From NCBI GenBank assembly GCA_903927685.1, contig CAIYOB010001130.1, positions 1 through 11,860 on the forward strand: 11,860 nucleotides of DNA, in the 5' to 3' direction. The number at the start of each line of letters is the position of its first letter. Positions within the stretch are counted from its first letter, which is position 1. Shown here in pieces: positions 1,750 through 11,860 of this stretch. Below the pieces are notes generated by a model. It did not search any database. It was not told the DNA's origin and saw only the letters and a list, made by a program, of their open reading frames with translations. Made by a program: the position numbers and the translations under genes. Source of the DNA: an uncultured Planctomycetaceae bacterium. GTDB lineage: Bacteria > Planctomycetota > Planctomycetia > Pirellulales > Pirellulaceae.

Positions 1750-3063
1750 ATGAGCCCAACCATCGCCCGCATCATCGCGGGCTCGCTGGCGTTCGTCGTC
1801 GCCGCGACGACAGAGGCCGCTGAATCGGATCGCAAGGCCGCTGCCTATCGGCAGCGGGTCCATGTTGTCACCGGCCTCAAGGGCTGCGTGGCCTTGTGGG
1901 ACTTCGTCCAACGCGAGCCGAACGGGCAGCGGCGCTTCACCGCCCATGTGCCGCCGGGGGCCACCACCGACTACCCGCTGGATGCCGCCAACTACATCAA
2001 GGACTTCTGGGGCGCGGGACGCGAGGCCACGTATGCCGACTTTCCGCAGCTGGAGCGAGGGCCGTTTGGCAACGCCATCCGCATCGTGAAGGAGACGGAC
2101 GCCAACTTCCGTCCCTTCCTGTTCGTGCCCCGCACGCGGCTGCATGATTCCCCGCTGGACATCAAGGGCGCGGGCAAATCGGTCACCGTCGTCGTGTGGG
2201 CCATCCGCGAGAGCGGGAATCACGCGCTGGCAGGCATCTGGCATGAGGGGACCGACTTGAAGCAGAGCGAGACGGCCTCCATTCAGAAAGTGCAGCGTGG
2301 CCAGCGGCAGTACGCCCTCTTTGCCGGACTGAACAAGGAAGGCAGCGCCTGCGGCCATGTCTCGGAGAATGGGGCGAGTTCCTTCCTGAACAAGTACGCC
2401 CTGCACAAATGCAACTCCGCGGCTCAGTCACCTGCGGTTCCAGCCGATTCGCCGGCCGACGTGCTGGATGCCTCGTGGCAGTGCTTCGCCATGACGTTCG
2501 ATCACGAGCAGGATGAACTCACCGGCTGGCTCAACGGCGTCTCCGGCGACCGCTGGCTGGAGAACCCGCAGAACGATGGGCTCATCTCCTCCGCCTACCA
2601 CGCCTACCTGCAGGGCCACTACGCCCGCACCCCGGAGAAGGAACCCGCGGAAGACCCCGCCTTTCCCAAAGACCAATACTACAACCCGCCGGAGGACAAG
2701 CCGCTCTCCGTCCAGGTCCTCGCCGAGTCCGCCGACGAGCGCACCGAACTCCGTGAATATCGCTTCACGAAAGTACAGCTCACGCTCCGCAGAACGGCCG
2801 GCGGCACCTTCCGCGAGACCAGCCGCGACCTCGTGGCCCTGCGACTGAATCCGTGGTGGTATCCGCACGACATCTACGCGCCGCCGAACGACGGCAGCGG
2901 CGGCCCGTTCACCATCGGCCGCGTCATCCACAGCAGCCGCAGCGTCGGCTTCACCGGCTGGATCGGCGGCGTGGCGGTGTTCAATCGGGCGCTGAGTGTG
3001 GAGGAGTTGATGAAGCTGTCGGCAATTCGAAGCGAGACGCCTGTATTCTTGCCGACGCGCTGA
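1750..3063 (+). CDS. Secreted LamG/concanavalin A-like domain protein
   Basis: The 437-residue protein begins with a signal peptide: a short N-region, a hydrophobic core at residues 6-19, and likely cleavage after the TEA or EAA near 22-24. The rest reads as one concanavalin-like jelly roll: CVALWDF near 46-52, VTVVVWAI near 143, DASWQCFAMTFD near 240, GWLNGV near 259, and GGVAVFNRALSVEEL near 405-420 as the closing strand and helix. This order is typical of LamG_3 (PF13385) domains. LamG domains usually run 150-200 residues, so this one carries large insertions, including a proline- and acid-rich loop at about 290-320. No catalytic module is visible; the likely role is binding glycan or protein outside the cytoplasm. 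The ATG is preceded by AAGGGA at 1737-1742 with a 7-nt gap, which supports the start. The gene ends at a TGA, followed by a non-coding gap. Confidence 0.78.
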   Translation: MSPTIARIIAGSLAFVVAATTEAAESDRKAAAYRQRVHVVTGLKGCVALWDFVQREPNGQRRFTAHVPPGATTDYPLDAANYIKDFWGAGREATYADFPQLERGPFGNAIRIVKETDANFRPFLFVPRTRLHDSPLDIKGAGKSVTVVVWAIRESGNHALAGIWHEGTDLKQSETASIQKVQRGQRQYALFAGLNKEGSACGHVSENGASSFLNKYALHKCNSAAQSPAVPADSPADVLDASWQCFAMTFDHEQDELTGWLNGVSGDRWLENPQNDGLISSAYHAYLQGHYARTPEKEPAEDPAFPKDQYYNPPEDKPLSVQVLAESADERTELREYRFTKVQLTLRRTAGGTFRETSRDLVALRLNPWWYPHDIYAPPNDGSGGPFTIGRVIHSSRSVGFTGWIGGVAVFNRALSVEELMKLSAIRSETPVFLPTR

Positions 3064-3369
3064 CCCGCGCACCGCGTGTACCTGGAAGATCCACCGTAAC
3101 TGCGGACAGAAAGATCGGGGACAGAAAAATGGGAGCGAAGGCGGTCAAATCCCGGAGCTTTGTCCCCCATTCTTCTGTCCACCATTCAATCACGAGAGCA
3201 CTGACGATGAACCCAACGCCATCGACTCGCCGTGAGCTTGGAAACGATGGGTTGCCGGAACGCTTGATCCGCCTGCGGTCGCATTTCTTGTCCAAATTGT
3301 CTGCCAGCGGTGGATATTGGATAAGCCGAGGGTCTGTTTCTGAAGAAGCGCGAGGGTTGCCTGCCGCCC
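3064..3369 (+). other. Intergenic region with repeat and possible promoter for the sigma-like ORF
   Basis: About 306 bp contain no convincing gene. The first half holds the GGACAGAAA inverted repeat described separately. An ATG at 3207 opens a frame that runs to 3512, but its product has no recognisable motif and it overlaps the better supported sigma-like ORF in another frame, so I treat it as chance. The second half is slightly richer in AT near 3280-3325 and contains TTGTC-type and TGGATA-type hexamers, but their spacing does not give a clear sigma-70 promoter. A GAGGG at 3352-3356 lies 13 nt before the GTG at 3370 and is a weak ribosome-binding candidate. No terminator with a T-tract was seen. 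Confidence 0.5.
3104..3180. repeat. GGACAGAAA-type repeat cluster with 15-bp inverted repeat
   Basis: Two head-to-tail copies, GGACAGAAAGATCGGGG (3104-3120) and GGACAGAAAAATGGG (3119-3133), are followed by an inverted copy, CCCATTCTTCTGTCC (3166-3180). The second copy and the inverted copy pair at 14 of 15 positions around a 32-nt loop. The sequence could form a hairpin in DNA or RNA. Similar GGGGACAGAAAAATGGGG words recur, from general knowledge, as dispersed repeats in planctomycete and other genomes, sometimes near transposase genes. No transposase is present here, so this is either a REP/MITE-like repeat or an element remnant. The stem lacks a following T-tract, so an intrinsic terminator for the LamG gene is possible but not clearly shown. 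Confidence 0.65.
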
Positions 3370-3960
3370 GTGGACGATCACGAACGTTTCATGCGGTTGT
3401 TGCTGACGCACGAGCCGGAGATTCTGCGCTCGGTGCTGGTGTTCGTGCCGCACCGTCCCGATGCGCGGGACATCATGCAGGAAACGGCCGCGGCGTTGTG
3501 GAGCCACTTTGACGAATACGATCCGTCGCGGCCGTTTGTGAATTGGGCGCACGGTTTTGCCCGGAACGAGGTCCGCCGATTCCTGCGCGCCAGGCGACGC
3601 CGCCAGGCACTGACGGAACGCGCGGCCGCAGCGCTGATGGCAACCGCCGATGCGACGGAAGGGACTCGCGTCGAGCGCGAGCGGCAGCTGACCGATTGCC
3701 TGCAACGTTTACCGGCGGAACAGCGGCGTTTGTTGGACGGGTACACACTCGAGTATGCCGTGCCGTGGTCGTTGCTCGGCGCCGCGGAAACGCCCCCGCG
3801 CCCCGGAGATACGCTCGCCGTTTCCTGGACGACCCACTGGAGCGATGCCGGCGGACGCCTGTGGCGCGGTCAACTCGTTGAACTCCGGAACTCCGCGGAG
3901 CCGGTCCGCATCCACACCTGGGAACGCGCCGCGACGTGGGGTCGGGCGCTCTACCGTTAG
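3370..3960 (+). CDS. Chimeric ORF: ECF sigma factor (truncated in region 4) joined to CBM9-like domain C-terminus
   Basis: The 196-residue frame starts at GTG 3370; the in-frame TAA at 3322 limits any extension. Residues 1-123 match the Rhodopirellula/Verrucomicrobium type of ECF sigma factor: HERFMRLLLTHEPEILR at the start, region 2 with DARDIMQETAAALW (31-44) and FDEYDPSRPFVNWA (47-60), the DNA-facing ARNEVRRFLRARRRR (64-78), and the first helix of region 4, CLQRLPAEQRRLL (110-122). The sequence then changes at about residue 125 (near base 3742) to EYAVPWSLLGA, a PGD turn and a TWERAATWGRALY end, which resembles the last strands of CBM9/DOMON-like carbohydrate-binding domains of extracellular enzymes. 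The region 4 helix-turn-helix that contacts the -35 element is absent, and so is the front part of the CBM9 fold. No signal peptide or membrane segment is present. The most likely origin is a deletion joining the 5' end of a sigma gene to the 3' end of a CBM9-containing gene, so the product may be non-functional. The beta-helix gene begins 19 bp after the stop. Confidence 0.72.
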   Translation: MDDHERFMRLLLTHEPEILRSVLVFVPHRPDARDIMQETAAALWSHFDEYDPSRPFVNWAHGFARNEVRRFLRARRRRQALTERAAAALMATADATEGTRVERERQLTDCLQRLPAEQRRLLDGYTLEYAVPWSLLGAAETPPRPGDTLAVSWTTHWSDAGGRLWRGQLVELRNSAEPVRIHTWERAATWGRALYR

Positions 3961-3979
3961 ACACAAGGCAGCGACTCGA

Positions 3980-5923
3980 ATGAAACCGCTATCGAAAGCC
4001 AAGCCAAGCTTCGATTCGTGCCGTTTACCCAATCCGCTCCTGCCGGGTTTCTGGCTGGTTCTGATCGTGGCGACGCCCTCGGTTACGGCTAACGACGGCA
4101 GTGACGCGGACTCGCCCTATCGCGTGCGGGTCCATGGTCAGCCGGTCACCGTGTATCGCGCGCACACCTGGGACCCGGGCTACGTGCCGTCCTATGGCGG
4201 TCCCTACTGGTTTTGTTCGTTCGACATGGCGGGACCGGTACAGGTCGAGGTCTCGACGACGAGATCGCTGGACAAGCTGGTTGTGCTGCCGGAGTCGCGC
4301 GGGGTTGTGGCGCGGGTCGCGGGCCCGAACGCCGTGATGCAGCTCGCCCAACCGGGGCAGATTGTCGTCGAGCCGGATGGCAAGAACGGGCCGCTGTTGT
4401 TGTTTGCCAATCCGCCCGAGGCAACCCCGCCCGACAAGAACGACCCGAACGTGAAGTACTTCGGCCCCGGACTGCATCGCGTCGATGCCATTCAGCTCAC
4501 CGACAACCAGACGCTCTACCTGGCACCGGGCGCGGTCGTGCAGGGCGGTATCCACGCGTGGGGCAGGAACATCACCATTCGCGGACGCGGGATCCTCGAC
4601 GGCCACGCTTACCCGCGGTTCAAGGGGCCGACACGGTATCCGGTGCTGCTGGAGAACTGCCGGGACATTACGGTCGAGGGCATCGTGATCAAGGACGGTT
4701 GGAGCTGGACCTTCGTGCCCGGCGGGTGTGACCGGGTCCGGATCGAGAATGTGAAGCTGCTCTCGGCGCGGGTGGAGAACGGCGACGGCTTTGACATTGT
4801 CAATTCACGGGACGTCACCATCGCCAACTGTTTCGTACGGTCCGACGACGACTGCGTGACGCCCAAGGGCATGGGGGCGCGCTGGCAGGGATTTTACGGC
4901 GACGCCGGCGCTGCCGGTTCGACCGCGACTCCGGCCCGAGGTATGCCGGTGGAGAACCTGCGAGTAGAGAACTGCATCCTGTGGAGCGACCGCGCCCATA
5001 TCTGGCGGATTGGTTGCGAGTCGCAGGCGGAGGCTTTTCGCAACCTTGTTTTTCGGAACATCGATGTCGTGCATTTTCCTGATTTGTGGACTCCGGACGA
5101 AGTTCCGTTCTGCATCAGCCTGGAGCCCTCCGAAGACATGGTGCAGGAGAACATCCTGTTCGAAGACATCCGCATCCGGACTGCCGGGCAGCGAGGTCTG
5201 ATCGACGTACGGCCGAAGGTCACGCAGTGGGCGCGGCAGCCGGTGCCGGGCAGAATCCAGAATGTCGTGTTCCGCAATGTCGCGTTCACCGGCCCGGCAG
5301 GAAAGGCTCCCGGCCGCGTCCGCGTGTGCGGTCCCGGTCCCGACCACTCCGTCGCCAATGTCAGATTTGAAAACGTCACGCGGAACGGAGAGGCCCTGAC
5401 GGCCACCGCCGCGGGCGTCGAGTTGTTGGGATCCACCGACGGGATCGCTTTCACCGCCGGCACCGCGAGGGCACCAAGGGCCGACTCGGCTTCGGGCTCC
5501 GAAGCGCGCCGCCACGCGCCGATCGTGCTGATCGAAGCCCGACAGGCCCGCGGGGTGATCGCGGTTCAAGGCGGTGCGGACGGCCCCTTCCGGGCCGCCG
5601 TCGTCCGCCTGCAAGAGGGCTGGAAGCGGGCGACCGGGACAACGCTTCCGGTCGTGGAAGTGGCCCAACCCGGCCCGGCGGTGGTCCTGGGCGATTCGCC
5701 GCAAGCGGCGGCCGAAGGGTTGAAGAGCGCGCAGATTCCAGCCGGAGGATACGAGATCCGGACCCTCAAGGAACGCGTCTTGATCGTTGGCGACCCATCA
5801 GGGGCACTACGCGGCGTGGAGGCCCTCCTCGCCAACTCGCTTCACTACGTTCCCGAGGGCTCAACCGAGACGGGTACGGACCTGGTGGTTGCACCGATGT
5901 CGCTCAGCGGCCGACCCGAGTAG
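3980..5923 (+). CDS. Secreted GH28-like (polygalacturonase-fold) beta-helix protein with C-terminal hexosaminidase-domain-2-like module
   Basis: I chose the ATG at 3980 because it opens a signal peptide (basic N-region, hydrophobic LLPGFWLVLIVATPSVTA at residues 20-37). The same frame is open further upstream, but that part overlaps the preceding ORF and has shadow-like composition. The product is 647 residues. Residues ~45-120 form a beta-rich N-terminal domain, and ~125-495 a right-handed beta-helix with repeated turns (NITIRGRGILDG, DITVEGIVIKDG, RVRIENVKLL). GH28 acidic residues are visible: N267-G-D269 (the NTD motif) and D289/D290/D291 in SDDDC (the DD motif). H340 in RAHIWRIGCES sits where the GHG histidine is expected, but the flanking glycines differ. 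Family members cleave polygalacturonan or related glycans by inversion; the substrate here is open. Residues ~514-647 add an alpha/beta segment (EGWKRATGTTLPVV, SGALRGVEALLANSLHYVPEG) like the non-catalytic domain that precedes GH20/GH67/DUF4838 catalytic domains. No catalytic domain follows. Confidence 0.75.
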   Translation: MKPLSKAKPSFDSCRLPNPLLPGFWLVLIVATPSVTANDGSDADSPYRVRVHGQPVTVYRAHTWDPGYVPSYGGPYWFCSFDMAGPVQVEVSTTRSLDKLVVLPESRGVVARVAGPNAVMQLAQPGQIVVEPDGKNGPLLLFANPPEATPPDKNDPNVKYFGPGLHRVDAIQLTDNQTLYLAPGAVVQGGIHAWGRNITIRGRGILDGHAYPRFKGPTRYPVLLENCRDITVEGIVIKDGWSWTFVPGGCDRVRIENVKLLSARVENGDGFDIVNSRDVTIANCFVRSDDDCVTPKGMGARWQGFYGDAGAAGSTATPARGMPVENLRVENCILWSDRAHIWRIGCESQAEAFRNLVFRNIDVVHFPDLWTPDEVPFCISLEPSEDMVQENILFEDIRIRTAGQRGLIDVRPKVTQWARQPVPGRIQNVVFRNVAFTGPAGKAPGRVRVCGPGPDHSVANVRFENVTRNGEALTATAAGVELLGSTDGIAFTAGTARAPRADSASGSEARRHAPIVLIEARQARGVIAVQGGADGPFRAAVVRLQEGWKRATGTTLPVVEVAQPGPAVVLGDSPQAAAEGLKSAQIPAGGYEIRTLKERVLIVGDPSGALRGVEALLANSLHYVPEGSTETGTDLVVAPMSLSGRPE

Positions 5924-5979: not shown

Positions 5980-8900
5980 ATGTCCAAGACCGCAACACCC
6001 AGTCTGGCGCTGATCCTGTTGATGACCAGTGTCACGCTCCGCGCCGAAGTCACGATTCCCTATTCCGTTCCCCGAGGGGGCCGCGTCTCGCTCGCGCTCT
6101 ATGATGCCGAGGGCCGCATGGTGCGCACGCTGCTCACTGGAAAGCCCCACGCGAAAGGGGATTGCGCCGCAACCTGGGACGGCCTCGACCGCTACGGCAA
6201 CGCGCTGCCCGCAGGCGATTACACCTGGAGATTGCTTGCGACCGAAGGGCTGCGCGCGGAGTTCATCACGCAGGTTGGCCAGAACGTCGATCCGGCTTGG
6301 GAACGGGCCACGGGAAACCACGCTCCGCCCAACAGCGTGGCAGTCGACGCGACCGGACTTTATCGCGTCGGGGCCACCAACGAAGGCGCCCATTGGGGTG
6401 TCAAGACGAACCTCGACGGGCGGCATCTGTGGACGAACGACCGCTGGTCGGCCGACCCGTGGGTGCAGGATACGGTCGCCGTGACGTTGGTCGGTGATCG
6501 GCTGTTCGAGCTGATGCCGAACGGTCATGTCTATGGTTACGACGCGAAGTCGGGCCGCGTATTCACGGGCGGCGATTTCGATCCGAAGCCGTGGAATCTG
6601 CGCTGGAACCGCGTCGAGCCGCCAGCCGGCGGGAAAGATGAAAACCGGAGAAAACTGAACGCCGCGGAAAGCCCGCGCGACCTTGCCGGGGACGCGGCCA
6701 GCGGATTGCTCGTGGCGGCGTTTCCGCAGCACGATGCGATTGCCTGGTTCAGCGCGAAGGACGGACAGCTTGTGGATACAGCCACGAATATCACGGGACT
6801 CGCGGGCGTGGCGGTAGCAAAGGAGGGCACGGTATTCGCGATCTCCGGCGGCGAGGTCGTCGCGTTCTCGCGGGAAGACAAGACTCCGCGCATCGTCATC
6901 GCCGCGGAGAAGCTGCAGTGTCCGTGGCGGCTGTGCGTGAGTCCGCAGTCCGGCGACGTCTTCGTGGCGGAGAACAGCGATTTGGCAAAGGGCACCGTGG
7001 TGCCGGTCCTGCTGGACGCCTCGGATGGCAAGGTTCCGGACCTCGGGGCGGGAGCAAGAGTCACGCCCGTGCCCGGACTGCGGCACCATCAGGTCAAACG
7101 CTTTGCGGCGGACGGGACGTTGGTCAAGTGCTTCGACCGACGAGAAGGCCGGGACGACGGCGTCTACGCGCCGACCGACTTCCGCGGGCTGACGGACATC
7201 GAGGCGGATGCCGACGGCGGGTTTGTCGTCACCGAGGGGAACCATACGCCGCCGCGGCGCGTGGCGAGATTCGACGCAGACGGGAACCCGCTCCGCGAGT
7301 GGTACGGGGCTCAGCATTACGGCGTCATTGCCTGCCCGGAGCCGGGTGACCCGCGTTTCGTCTGGACCCTGGCCAACGCGCCGCAGCCGGGCTTGGTCCG
7401 CTGGGAAGTCGACTATGCCAAGAAGACGTGGCGCGTGGCCGAAGTCTATCAGGAAGCGTTTGCCGCCAACAAGTTCGCTACCGTGCCGCCGGTGCCCAAC
7501 GTGTTTGAGAAAGACGGGCGCATCTACATCCAGGGCGGCGGTGTGCAGCCGGTCGGCTGGACGCTCTGTGTCTATGACCCCGTGGCCAAACGCATCCGGC
7601 CCTGCAATGCCAGCGAGTCGCGCGACAACAAGCGGCGGGCCTATCTCTGGAATGATCTCAATGACGACGGTCTTGCCACCGACGACGAAGTCCAGTGGCT
7701 CAGCCGCAACAAGCTCGGCGGGTGGATCCATCCCGGCGATTTCACGCTGCGGACCACGTCGACGGCCAGTGATTACAGCCCCGGCCCGCTGTTGAAGCCC
7801 GTTCGCATCACGGCTGGCGGCACGCCCGTCTACGACATGCAGGCGGCCGAGCAATCCGCTCCGTGGCTGGAGCACGGCCGGAAGCATTTCCCCGGCGATT
7901 TCCGCGTCGCAGCCGATGGCAGCGTCTTCGCCTGCTTTTCCGACGGCGCCAGCAACCCGCACGAAGGCATGGAGACGCACGGCGCCTGGTACTACAACTC
8001 GTGCTCGGCGATCGACCGGCTGGTGAAATGGAGCCGCGAGGGCAAGCCCCTCTGGAGCGTCGGCCGCCACACTCCCGACAAGACGGCGATCACCGCGGAC
8101 ATCTTCAGCGCCCGCTGGAGCGGCACGTATGAAGCGGCCACGAGCGAGGATACGCGGTTCGAGATCCGCGGCAGTTTCCCCTGGCGAGCCCAAGGCCAGC
8201 CGCTCTGGTCGCGCCTCTGGCTGGGCGGCGAATTGGTGTTCGACTCCAAGCCATCCGGCGTGCAGGGGCAGACAACCTACGACCAGCAGGCGGCCAGCAG
8301 CCTGGGCACGGTGGCGGTGAAGCTCCGCGCCGGCCAGCGGCTCGACCTGCGGTTGGAGTGCGGATTCAAAAAGGGCCAAGCTGCCCTTGCCCTGAGTCAC
8401 GACACACCCGGCCTGGACCGCCGCGTGATCCTGCCGGAATTTCTCCATCCCGAGCCCGGCCCCAAGGCCAAGCTCGAACGCGTTACCGAGCAACGGCCGG
8501 AAGTCATCGCCCACTTCGACTTTGACGAAGTGGATGGCATGTTGTCGTGGAGTCGTGCGGGCGGCGATGTCTTCGGTCGGCTGACCGGCGGCACGCGCCG
8601 GGTGGCGGGCAAGACGGGCCGGGCGGTTGAGTTGGCGGCCAAGGGCGAGTTTGATCCCGCTCTGTTTCCAATCGACGAAGAACTCCGCCTGCCGGTCACC
8701 GACTACACAGTTGGCTTCTGGTTCAAGACCACGGCGTCCAACGTCCGGCTGTGTGAGGCCAAACGCTACTCCAGCTACAACAACCGCTGGAGCGACCACA
8801 TCGTGTCCGTGGAAGGCGGCAAACTGCGATTCCAGCTCCAGGGCGACGGCCCGCTCGAAACGTCGGGACCAGTCAACGACGGCCAATGGCACCACGTCGT

Positions 8901-9105
8901 GACCACCGTCGCCCCCGGCGGCCAGCGTCTGCACGTGGACGGCCAACGGATCGCCACCGGCAAGCTCGCCCAACGCACGCGAGTGAGCAACCGCCTGGGT
9001 CTGGACCTCGGCCCTGGCGGTGGGCAAGGGACCGTGGCCATCGACGATTTGTCCGTAATCGGGCGTAGTCTCTCGGAACGCGAAATCGTGGCAATGAAAG
9101 ACTGA
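5980..9105 (+). CDS. Large secreted multidomain protein: FlgD-like Ig, beta-propeller, PA14-like and LamG segments
   Basis: This 1041-residue protein has a signal peptide (MSKTATPSLALILLMTSVTLRA, cleavage near 22). Residues ~25-90 match a FlgD-type Ig-like domain: VSLALYDAEGRMVRTLL, then TWDGLDRYGNALPAGDYTW. Residues ~95-695 contain repeated NHL/propeller-like strands such as NSVAVDATGLYRVG, GLAGVAVAKEGTVFAI and GLTDIEADADGGFVV. Residues ~706-830 read as PA14-like (FSARWSGTYEAATSEDTRFEI, then LWLGGELVFDS). Residues ~842-1038 are a LamG/concanavalin domain (VIAHFDFDE, YTVGFWFKTT, DGQWHHVVTTV, HVDGQRIATGKL, IDDLSVIGRSLSEREI). There is no clear catalytic motif. The likely role is extracellular glycan or surface binding. 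The end of the propeller passes abruptly into the PA14-like part near residues 690-706. No Shine-Dalgarno sequence precedes the ATG, and the 56-bp gap upstream is AT-richer. The gene may be co-transcribed with the beta-helix gene. A long antisense frame covers it but has no recognisable motif. Confidence 0.75.
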   Translation: MSKTATPSLALILLMTSVTLRAEVTIPYSVPRGGRVSLALYDAEGRMVRTLLTGKPHAKGDCAATWDGLDRYGNALPAGDYTWRLLATEGLRAEFITQVGQNVDPAWERATGNHAPPNSVAVDATGLYRVGATNEGAHWGVKTNLDGRHLWTNDRWSADPWVQDTVAVTLVGDRLFELMPNGHVYGYDAKSGRVFTGGDFDPKPWNLRWNRVEPPAGGKDENRRKLNAAESPRDLAGDAASGLLVAAFPQHDAIAWFSAKDGQLVDTATNITGLAGVAVAKEGTVFAISGGEVVAFSREDKTPRIVIAAEKLQCPWRLCVSPQSGDVFVAENSDLAKGTVVPVLLDASDGKVPDLGAGARVTPVPGLRHHQVKRFAADGTLVKCFDRREGRDDGVYAPTDFRGLTDIEADADGGFVVTEGNHTPPRRVARFDADGNPLREWYGAQHYGVIACPEPGDPRFVWTLANAPQPGLVRWEVDYAKKTWRVAEVYQEAFAANKFATVPPVPNVFEKDGRIYIQGGGVQPVGWTLCVYDPVAKRIRPCNASESRDNKRRAYLWNDLNDDGLATDDEVQWLSRNKLGGWIHPGDFTLRTTSTASDYSPGPLLKPVRITAGGTPVYDMQAAEQSAPWLEHGRKHFPGDFRVAADGSVFACFSDGASNPHEGMETHGAWYYNSCSAIDRLVKWSREGKPLWSVGRHTPDKTAITADIFSARWSGTYEAATSEDTRFEIRGSFPWRAQGQPLWSRLWLGGELVFDSKPSGVQGQTTYDQQAASSLGTVAVKLRAGQRLDLRLECGFKKGQAALALSHDTPGLDRRVILPEFLHPEPGPKAKLERVTEQRPEVIAHFDFDEVDGMLSWSRAGGDVFGRLTGGTRRVAGKTGRAVELAAKGEFDPALFPIDEELRLPVTDYTVGFWFKTTASNVRLCEAKRYSSYNNRWSDHIVSVEGGKLRFQLQGDGPLETSGPVNDGQWHHVVTTVAPGGQRLHVDGQRIATGKLAQRTRVSNRLGLDLGPGGGQGTVAIDDLSVIGRSLSEREIVAMKD

Positions 9106-9263
9106 GCCAGCGGGGCGGAGGCCATGCGCCGGGCGGAAGCCTTGGGGAGTGGAAAACTCGCCGATTTTCGGTAATAACTCCGGCAGGTCGGCCATCGATC
9201 TGATATCCGCGGACCTCCCAACTATGCTGTCCGTATCAACCCGTTGCCAACCGGAGCACGCTC

Positions 9264-11860
9264 ATGCCAACGCGACGCTGGGTCTTAGCCCTATCCGCCC
9301 TGTGGCTCACGAGTGCGCCGGCTGTGACCGGGGCACTCCGCGCCCAGTCGCCCGCCGGTGCGGAGCTGCGTTCTCTCGGCGTGCGTCTGTCGTGGGGGCA
9401 TCGCTCGCCCCAGGCTGCGGCATGGTTCGTCCGGCTGATGCCTGCAGCGAGCGGAATGAAGCTTCAAGACGCGGCGGGGTGGAATTTGGAGGAATCGGAC
9501 GGACTGGCCGACGGGGTTGTGCGAACCACCGCTGGGGCGGGCGACGTGGACGGTGTCCAGTTCACGCTGAGTTACCAGGAACCGGCCGAGACCAAGCCCC
9601 GGACCGAGCATTCCATCTGGAACTACCTGCTCACGCACGGCGACGCGGACGCGGCGAGCCGCTTGCGCAGCGATCCGGCCTTCCAAGTCGATCCGCGGCT
9701 GTTGACGGTGCAATTGAATGAGGAAGGGACGCGCGGTTTCTCGGTGAGCGTCGACCAGTTGTTGCGCGAACGAACCCTGTGGGTTCCGGACCTGGACGTG
9801 TTTCTCGCCGCGGGCGACGAATTGCTCACGTTCCAGCAGCATCAAGCCGCGATTCAACCCTACGCCGGCCAACGGATCCTGGACCAACTCGAACGAGAAC
9901 CGGACGCCACCTATGAACAATACACGGCACGTTGGGAAGACATGGGCAGCCCCGCCTATCAGAACCCGCATTCCGTCCCGCCTGGACACATCGTGGGGGT
10001 GACATGGGACAGCGCCATTCCAAAATTCGGCATTGATCGATGGGCCGGCGTGGCCAGCGATTACGGCAATCCCGACAAGTTCAAATTCCAGCTGGACCTG
10101 CAAGGCTGGGAGTGGAAAGGCCAGCGGCTGACCGCTGGCCTGCCGGTGCTGACGACGACTTTCGAGCGTTCCGGCGTGCGTCTGGAAATCGAGCAGTTCG
10201 CGTACCCGCTGGTCGGCCCGCCGCCGGAACGGCGCGGCGATATCGCGCTGGTCCTGTTGCAGCAGGTGCGGGCCACGGCCCAGGACGGTACGGCTCAGAC
10301 GGTGAGCTTGAGTCTCCGTCACGAGCGATCCCTGGCGGACGCGGTCGGAGTCGTCTACCTCGGCCCCACCGCGCTCGTCGAGGAATCCTCGTCGCACCGC
10401 GTGCTGTTTTCGGCCCAAGGCGTGGACACGATTTCCGACGTCACGCCCACAAACAAGTCCGTCACCGCGGCTCTGGTCTTGAACTTGCCTGCCGCGGGCG
10501 CCAAGGAGATCGTCCTCAAGCTGCCCTCGCCGGTGGTCGAGGCGGACGCCCGCGCGACCCTGGCCGGACTGGATTACGCCGCCGCCCGCTCGGCCACGCT
10601 GCGGTTCTGGGAGGGCTATCTCGCTCGCGGCGCGCAGTTCCGGGTGCCCGAGCAGGTCGTCAACGATCTGTTTCGCGCCAACCTGTGGCATGCACTGCGT
10701 TTGCCGCGCCGGCACGGCGGCAATGAGCCGGGCGTGAGCCTGGACCTGCCCTACTCGAACTTTGCCTATGACCAGCGCGGCACGCCGTGGCCGGTCAACC
10801 AGGCGATCTACGTGGACTACATGCTGTACGACTTGCGCGGTTACCACGCCATCGCGGCCGAGGAACTCGCGGCCATCTATCGGAACAACCAGGAACCCGA
10901 CGGCCGCGTGGGCGGCTTTGCTAACTGGGGTGTGTACACGCCGTCGATGTTGCTCGCTGTGGCCGAGCATGGTTTGCTGTCGGGCGATCGGGCGACCATC
11001 GACGCTCTGCTGCCCGCGACGCTCCGAGCCGGGGACTGGTGCCTGGCCGAGATCGCCCGCGCCCAGCAATCGGACGGCCCGGCACGGGGGCTGATCCGAG
11101 CGCCCTTGAACGACCTCTCGCATAACCCGCAGGCCTGGGCCTTTAACCAGGCGTACTTCTACGCCGGCTGCGACCGGCTGGCGCGGCTGCTCCGCCGGCT
11201 GGAGCACCCGCGCGCGGCCGAATTCCAACGGGCCGCCGACCAGATGCGGCAGGCGGTCGAGCGGGGCTTCGGCCAGGCCGCGACGCGGGCTCCGCTGGTG
11301 CCGCTGCGCGACCGCACCTGGATTCCCTACGTGCCGGCCGACGCCTCGACGCCTCGGCGGTTGCTGGAGGTCTGGTATCCGACCGACGTCGATACGGGGG
11401 CGCTGCACCTGTCGCGCCTGGCGGCCCTGGACCAGTGCGGGCCATTGACTACCTACCTGCTGCACGACCACGAAGACAATCTGTTCCTGAACGGCTGGGG
11501 CATGGCCAACGAGCCGGTCTACAACCAGCACGCCACGGCCTATCTGCTGCGGGATGAAGTGCAGCCGGCGATCCGGGCGTTCTACAGCATGCTGGCGTGC
11601 GCCTTCAGTCATTCGGTGCTGGAGCCGGTCGAGCATCGCTGGGGATGGGGCCAGTACTTCGGACCGCCCAGCACGGACGGGGCCTGGTTCGACCTCTATC
11701 GCCATCTCCTGATCCAGGAGCGGGATGATGATACGCTGGTCCTATTGGCAGCCACGCCGCGGAAGTGGCTGGAGGATGGCAAGCAGATGGAAATCCGCCG
11801 GGCGCCGACGTACTTTGGGCCGCTGAGCATGACCGTCGAGAGCCGCGCGGCAACCGGCAC
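9264..11860 (+). CDS. Secreted six-hairpin (alpha/alpha)6 glycosidase-like protein, 3' truncated by window edge
   Basis: The frame starts at ATG 9264 and runs without a stop to the last base, giving at least 865 codons. GGAG at 9253-9256, 7 nt before the ATG, supports this start. The N-terminus MPTRRWVLALSALWL followed by TSAPAVTGALRA is a signal peptide. Residues ~40-440 are mostly beta-sandwich in character, including WDSAIPKFGIDRW near 248, and VLTTTFERSGVRLEIEQFAYPL near 293-315. From ~445 the sequence becomes helical and rich in Trp, Tyr and acidic pairs: FWEGYLARGAQF, QAIYVDYMLYDLRGYHAIAAEEL, GFANWGVYTPSMLLAVAEHG and HDHEDNLFLNGWGMANEPVYNQH. This beta-sandwich plus alpha-toroid order is that of six-hairpin glycosidases (GH15/65/94/95 and related folds). 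I cannot assign a GH family or name the catalytic acids; D/E residues in the HDHED segment and in YVDYMLYD are candidates. The long reverse-strand frame across 9291-11705 is a shadow. The gene lies 158 bp after the LamG-containing protein on the same strand. Confidence 0.7.
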   Translation, partial: MPTRRWVLALSALWLTSAPAVTGALRAQSPAGAELRSLGVRLSWGHRSPQAAAWFVRLMPAASGMKLQDAAGWNLEESDGLADGVVRTTAGAGDVDGVQFTLSYQEPAETKPRTEHSIWNYLLTHGDADAASRLRSDPAFQVDPRLLTVQLNEEGTRGFSVSVDQLLRERTLWVPDLDVFLAAGDELLTFQQHQAAIQPYAGQRILDQLEREPDATYEQYTARWEDMGSPAYQNPHSVPPGHIVGVTWDSAIPKFGIDRWAGVASDYGNPDKFKFQLDLQGWEWKGQRLTAGLPVLTTTFERSGVRLEIEQFAYPLVGPPPERRGDIALVLLQQVRATAQDGTAQTVSLSLRHERSLADAVGVVYLGPTALVEESSSHRVLFSAQGVDTISDVTPTNKSVTAALVLNLPAAGAKEIVLKLPSPVVEADARATLAGLDYAAARSATLRFWEGYLARGAQFRVPEQVVNDLFRANLWHALRLPRRHGGNEPGVSLDLPYSNFAYDQRGTPWPVNQAIYVDYMLYDLRGYHAIAAEELAAIYRNNQEPDGRVGGFANWGVYTPSMLLAVAEHGLLSGDRATIDALLPATLRAGDWCLAEIARAQQSDGPARGLIRAPLNDLSHNPQAWAFNQAYFYAGCDRLARLLRRLEHPRAAEFQRAADQMRQAVERGFGQAATRAPLVPLRDRTWIPYVPADASTPRRLLEVWYPTDVDTGALHLSRLAALDQCGPLTTYLLHDHEDNLFLNGWGMANEPVYNQHATAYLLRDEVQPAIRAFYSMLACAFSHSVLEPVEHRWGWGQYFGPPSTDGAWFDLYRHLLIQERDDDTLVLLAATPRKWLEDGKQMEIRRAPTYFGPLSMTVESRAATG

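Follow-up and report, generated by a model that had tools for sequence, protein, structure and literature searches.

In the SigI-RsgI system of Clostridium thermocellum, a membrane anti-sigma factor senses polysaccharide through its outer part. The intact counterpart of the locus described here, an ECF sigma factor paired with a FecR-type anti-sigma factor that carries a CBM9-like sensor (FecR-CBM9), probably works alike, by analogy with this and other membrane anti-sigma systems, although both the sigma family and the sensor differ. On the sigma side, the closest described group is the Rhodopirellula/Verrucomicrobium family of ECF sigma factors (TIGR02989), and on the sensor side it is the CBM9 of xylanase 10A from Thermotoga maritima (1i82). 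Neither a FecR-CBM9 anti-sigma factor nor a collapsed sigma/anti-sigma pair is named in the titles or the beginnings of abstracts of the literature matches listed in full-text searches.

The window, by which we mean the whole stretch of 11,860 bases, contains a fused ORF that no longer has the parts needed by a system of the SigI-RsgI kind. Its front corresponds to an ECF sigma factor and its end to the last strands of a FecR-CBM9 protein. With a probability of roughly 0.84, this ORF is what remains of an operon of two genes, sigma followed by FecR-CBM9, after collapse by an in-frame deletion.

The Sigma Half of the Fused ORF

The fused ORF (product P0001) occupies positions 3370..3960 on the plus strand and encodes 196 residues in a single open frame, running from a GTG start to the stop codon at 3958..3960 (+) with no internal stop codons. 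Residues 1–125 (3370..3744, +) comprise region 2, the linker, and the start of region 4 of an ECF sigma factor, with the remainder of region 4 missing. Sigma70_r2 (PF04542) is found by Pfam at residues 13–78 (E 2.1e-11), and residues 6–125 align with positions 2–123 of the 158 in TIGR02989, scoring 98.1 bits against a curated cut-off of 124.55. The last 35 positions of that model, which make up most of region 4, are missing from P0001, and Pfam reports no region 4 family in it up to E 1, which bears out the sequence-only reading of an ECF sigma factor lacking region 4.

A comparison of P0001 with 5.8 billion proteins gave 148 matches, among them the intact relatives P0003 and P0004, both sigma factors of 173 residues, with 94% and 91% identity covering 64% of the query. 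The 253 proteins collected for the comparisons below are those listed from this search (120 of the 148), from a search with the tail of P0001, residues 124–196 (22 of 22), and from a search with the outer part of the FecR-CBM9 protein of locus L001 (120 of the 442 proteins matching at E of 1e-3 or below). Within this set, residues 1–125 of P0001 are 93.6% identical to residues 4–128 of P0003 (BLASTP E 1.5e-83). Region 4 of P0003 is recognized as Sigma70_r4_2 (PF08281) with E 2.7e-5, its 24.2 bits being slightly below the curated 25.7.

Rare residues at conserved columns, taken as a gauge of relaxed constraint, are not in excess in the sigma half. P0001 has one such residue (A41), equal to the median across 111 sequences, which comprise P0001 and 110 sigma homologues of 150–215 residues, with joins and proteins of odd length left out. 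The event would thus be recent, or the decay slow, or the frame not wholly free.

The position at which the intact relatives have their start codon is occupied in the window by CTG (3361..3363, +), as can be seen from the in-frame codons upstream of the GTG. The N terminus of P0003 and P0004 reads M-P-P-V-x-D-H-E-R-F, whereas the window has L-P-P-V-D-D-H-E-R-F (beginning CTG-CCG-CCC-GTG-GAC-GAT). A GAGG motif (3352–3355) lies immediately 5′ of the CTG, and the GTG at 3370 could serve as the translation start.

The CBM9-Like Tail and Its Intact Parent

The rest of the ORF (3739..3957, +) encodes the final 73 residues of a FecR-like anti-sigma factor, which form the end of its CBM9-like sensor and include the four C-terminal β-strands. 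Residues 124–196 of P0001 and residues 476–548 of P0145 are identical at 72 of 73 positions (98.6%, BLASTP E 3e-48 in the set of 253 proteins), in agreement with the in-frame fusion to CBM9-like C-terminal strands that had been read from the sequence. Even in so small a set, the E values of the two parts are far from what chance would give. P0145 is an intact protein of 548 residues. Its record bears the label Pirellulaceae, possibly through faulty binning, and Verrucomicrobia or Chthoniobacteraceae are given for other relatives. Pfam places FecR in P0145 slightly above the cut-off and leaves CBM9 unreported, and in the FecR-CBM9 protein of L001 it finds DUF4880 above the cut-off, with FecR and CBM9_1 below it (13.1 of the required 23.4 bits for CBM9_1).

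As modelled by AlphaFold (mean pLDDT 81), P0145 starts with helices in residues 3–57, which form the anti-sigma domain, followed by a helix of membrane length (90–114), a FecR-type β domain (122–263), and a β-rich domain of 13 strands that extends from residue 307 to 547. In a Foldseek search, the top match to this model is 1i82 (E 1e-8, TM 0.77 by target), which is also matched by a profile search (E 0.0014); other CBM9 structures and the FecR-type domains of anti-sigma factors (4m0h, 6ovk) are matched as well. Only four of the 13 sensor strands are kept in P0001 (476–484, 500–510, 517–522, and 542–547 in P0145 numbering), so that, by comparison with the CBM9 of 1i82, the window retains the last four strands alone and the complete β-sandwich with its binding face is absent. 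The anti-sigma domain, the membrane helix, the FecR domain, and the front two thirds of the CBM9-like domain are likewise missing. In keeping with the loss of the helix, P0001 has no membrane-like stretch, its best 19-residue hydropathy being 0.97 compared to 1.78 in P0145.

Anti-sigma factors of the FecR type that carry a CBM9-like sensor make up a family of considerable size, of which P0145 and the product of L001:2464-4113 are examples and to which the 442 proteins found with the outer part of the latter attest. A different arrangement is seen in P0184 (353 residues, longest contig 12,819 bases), where the CBM9-like sensor is joined to a front that, by eye, begins like a signal peptide and then resembles an enzyme. 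No Pfam family matches P0184, which may be either a natural architecture or another join.

The two halves of P0001 differ in their predicted structure. In the sigma part, pLDDT averaged by tens is 76–97 as far as residue 120, and the best structural matches of P0001 are to region 2 of ECF sigma factors (best E 7.5e-3, none reaching E 0.001), whereas the tail has pLDDT of 29–54 in the fusion, compared to 65–96 for the equivalent residues of P0145. A well-folded region 2 might occupy the RNA polymerase core, in the manner of the split subunit RsoA with SigO, and the tail might tune it, making the fused product a functional decoy or regulator. Two-subunit sigma factors do exist, as in SigO-RsoA, where RsoA is a subunit with region 2 only (PMC8103513). 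However, folding is not predicted for a tail with four of the 13 strands, Pfam showed no lone region 4 in the seven frames of the window that were scanned, and the five joins described below break at differing places, leaving such a role scarcely credible. The related suggestion in the sequence-only reading, that the protein responds to sugar in the cytoplasm as an anti-sigma factor or decoy, has no support, as the anti-sigma domain is absent and the tail is not predicted to fold.

The Junction

The two halves meet at the codons GGG TAC (Gly-Tyr, residues 124–125; 3739..3744, +), overlapping the beginning of the range near residue 125 (about 3742–3753) in which the switch had been placed from the letters of the sequence. 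The parents share these two residues, with G-Y-Y in the sigma factors and G-Y-T in FecR-CBM9. The listed intact sigma genes have GGN TA(C/T) TA(C/T) at this point, and seven intact FecR-CBM9 loci have GGN TAC AC(G/C), which makes a microhomology of 5–6 bases (GGNTAC) at the junction probable. The G+C content is continuous across it (0.63–0.67 around 3251–4250), GC3 is 0.77 on one side and 0.79 on the other, and no short repeats of 16 bases or more are present around it. Protein alignments give a loss of 45 sigma residues and 475 anti-sigma residues, or ~1.56 kb; we infer the exact breakpoints from the same alignments.

Relationship of the Two Parents

An ECF sigma gene, belonging to another subfamily, lies immediately 5′ of the FecR-CBM9 gene in four of four related MAG loci (L001–L004), in each of which a protein of ~540–570 residues ends in the homologue of the tail. 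In L001, the sigma gene (1937–2467) and the FecR-CBM9 gene (2464–4113) overlap by 4 bases. This gene order, although seen with the other sigma subfamily, and the identification of the two parent families through P0003 (sigma, 94%) and P0145 (FecR-CBM9, 98.6%) favor a deletion joining two genes, which had been proposed as the simplest explanation.

Related genomes, in which the sequence-only reading proposed to look for the intact genes, have the adjacent pair in L001–L004, with its different sigma subfamily. Of loci with a sigma factor like that of the window, none of the 35 fetched with sigmas 40–65% identical to it has a CBM9 tail nearby, the contigs of L038 and L117 among them ending too soon. 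An exception is L048, where a sigma factor 37% identical is followed by a FecR-CBM9 protein with a 46% identical tail. Among the best 45 scored FecR-CBM9 proteins, 32 have an anti-sigma domain of the other type, seven (three of them weakly) have the type that matches this sigma subfamily, and six are unclear; this typing was restricted to proteins of at least 500 residues, which left out P0144 (390 residues, without the N terminus). Together, the 35 loci and the 32 proteins suggested a join of two different regulator pairs.

That explanation was dropped in view of four of the proteins. The three intact proteins of at least 500 residues with the best tails (P0145, P0148, and P0153) score 128–133 at their N termini against the anti-sigma type of this sigma subfamily, and when P0151 is included the scores are 124–133 for the matching type versus 26–44 for the other. 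It is on these four proteins that the case for a CBM9 sensor paired with this sigma subfamily stands, and since they carry the matching type, the fusion most likely joins cognate partners, and the parents were probably a sigma and an anti-sigma gene that were neighbors in the ancestor. For the sigma factor P0006 (73% identical to that of the window) and for P0151, the longest contig measures 4,296 bases in both cases, with jgi as the source, and this equality suggests that the two are neighbors. The presence of one sensor on differing anti-sigma domains, belonging to differing sigma subfamilies, suggests that sensors have been swapped.

Genes Downstream of the Fusion

A gene for a GH28-like enzyme (3980..5923, +; Glyco_hydro_28 in Pfam, E 2.4e-9) starts 19 bases past the stop codon of the fused frame and is stop-free from its ATG at 3980. 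It is a probable target of the lost regulator pair. It is followed by a gene for a protein with FlgD_ig, NHL, and laminin-G-like parts (5980..9105, +), assigned by Pfam. A homologue of the latter gene, matched in tblastn segments of 51–71% identity, is found downstream of the intact sigma and FecR-CBM9 pair in L003, where it follows directly, as well as in L001 and L002, where other genes intervene. A further long open frame (9204–11858, +) runs off the end of the window, and no Pfam family was found for 9255–11858.

Search for the Fusion in Genomes

An identical fusion in other genomes, as considered in the sequence-only reading, did not emerge: no match to P0001 spanning both halves is listed in 4 genomes, in 293 genomes of one order, in 14 of one family, in 387 of the phylum (cut-off 1e-33), or in 150 of another family. 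These samples overlap, their cut-offs differ, and in many genomes the candidates were partly scored, so that distant fusions could be missed; further searches of 372 and 386 genomes used the intact sigma P0003 as the query and were unable to reveal a fusion. With the intact FecR-CBM9 protein P0136 as the query, 74 genomes of the 293-genome order set have matches. These are free of internal stop codons, and a single short frame of the tail (120 residues) is located near the start of a contig in G134. No relatives were found in the viral contigs scanned.

Other Joins and Remnants

Six of the 253 collected proteins (P0001, P0002, P0005, P0116, P0124, and P0128) have both sigma and FecR-CBM9 parts. 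P0002, with five member sequences, represents the join of the window; its longest contig, of 1,799 bases, is shorter than the window itself. The remaining four are joins with differing breakpoints. P0005 (longest contig 5,305 bases) includes the sigma subfamily of the window, and P0116, P0124, and P0128 (longest contigs 32,613, 2,556, and 1,342 bases) include another one, with P0128 apparently broken twice, its parts having been read partly by eye. The value of 32,613 bases recurs for the longest contig of an intact FecR-CBM9 protein, P0188. An unbroken match of P0001 to a single established family over its 196 residues, which would have spoken against a fusion, is not seen among the matches listed, where beside P0002 only P0005, itself a join, shares both parts.

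Remnants of other kinds are also present. P0037 is apparently an intact sigma factor, read by eye, that runs out of frame into FecR-CBM9 sequence. At L048:7463-7892 (genome G004, contig 19), a frameshifted ECF sigma stump of about the first 50 residues was recognized by eye, as was a fragment resembling a formylglycine-generating enzyme into which this stump runs. At L002:17875-17976 (-), a 34-residue end of a CBM9 tail lies just behind and opposite the NHL/laminin-G gene and seems to be what is left of a lost FecR-CBM9 gene at its 3′ end.

Two short records differ from all of the above. In P0119 (longest contig 1,087 bases), region 2 of the sigma subfamily of the window runs into a stretch resembling Hsp70 (Pfam E 0.024), and this protein may be a chimera. 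P0130 (longest contig 908 bases) has, by eye, a HAD-like start, a phosphatase-like middle, and a CBM9 tail in one frame, and looks like an assembly chimera. Such records in the collection, together with the absence of a spanning join from the genomes searched with P0001, lend some weight to the idea that the fusion in the window is itself an assembly or library chimera, formed in a metagenome from two places in the same or a related genome. Yet P0002, with its five members and a contig shorter than the window, seems to place the join on another contig as well, even if the members may be repeated assemblies of one sample; the two sides are probable partner genes in the correct order and on the same strand, with the frame kept and GC3 even; and the longest contig of the similar join P0116 measures 32,613 bases. 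An artifact of this kind is therefore unlikely.

The recurrence of the joins, which is known only from metagenome-type protein matches, might be taken to mean that the pairs collapsed repeatedly in frame since the outcome was useful, either in supplying the enzyme operon with a non-polar leader or in acting on RNA polymerase as a decoy made of region 2, and we regard this as very improbable. For the first of these uses, selection would have preserved the fused frame, and with it the promoter, the translation start, and translation through the operon, so that the downstream enzymes are expressed, perhaps under a paralogous sigma factor. Five distinct in-frame joins do keep the front of the sigma factor and the end of the anti-sigma factor, and the GH28-like gene is close behind the fused stop codon. 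On the other hand, the searches required both ends in one frame, so that in-frame joins are over-represented by design and no selection on the frame can be claimed; the original start position is occupied by CTG; and P0037, as far as can be read by eye, indicates that the frame is not always kept. Only the slimmest chance is left to a selected leader. Plain decay by deletion explains the joins.

Proposed History of the Locus

Collapse of an operon by deletion, the preferred reading, would have started from an ECF sigma gene directly followed by one that encoded its cognate anti-sigma factor in the membrane. The latter would have consisted of an inhibitory N-terminal domain, one membrane helix, a FecR domain, and a CBM9-like sugar-binding sensor outside the cell. 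Judging by RsgI-type and FecR-type systems, binding of sugar outside would have released the sigma factor and led to transcription of the secreted carbohydrate-active genes behind the pair. About 1.56 kb would then have been deleted, probably through recombination between short homologous stretches (GGNTAC), and with it the last 45 residues of the sigma factor and the first 475 of the anti-sigma factor, with the frame kept by chance. If made, the product would have region 2 without the −35-binding region 4, plus an unfolded tail, and from its sequence and model it should not work as a sigma factor, an anti-sigma factor, or a sugar sensor.

As a gene remnant, the fused ORF carries little weight, except as a caution that such a frame may be annotated as a sigma-70 factor. 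The other joins, if real, would offer a small, testable example of regulator families that decay and are outlived by the enzymes once under their control. The more useful lead is the intact FecR-type anti-sigma factor with its CBM9-like sensor, which in relatives is located ahead of secreted carbohydrate-active genes.
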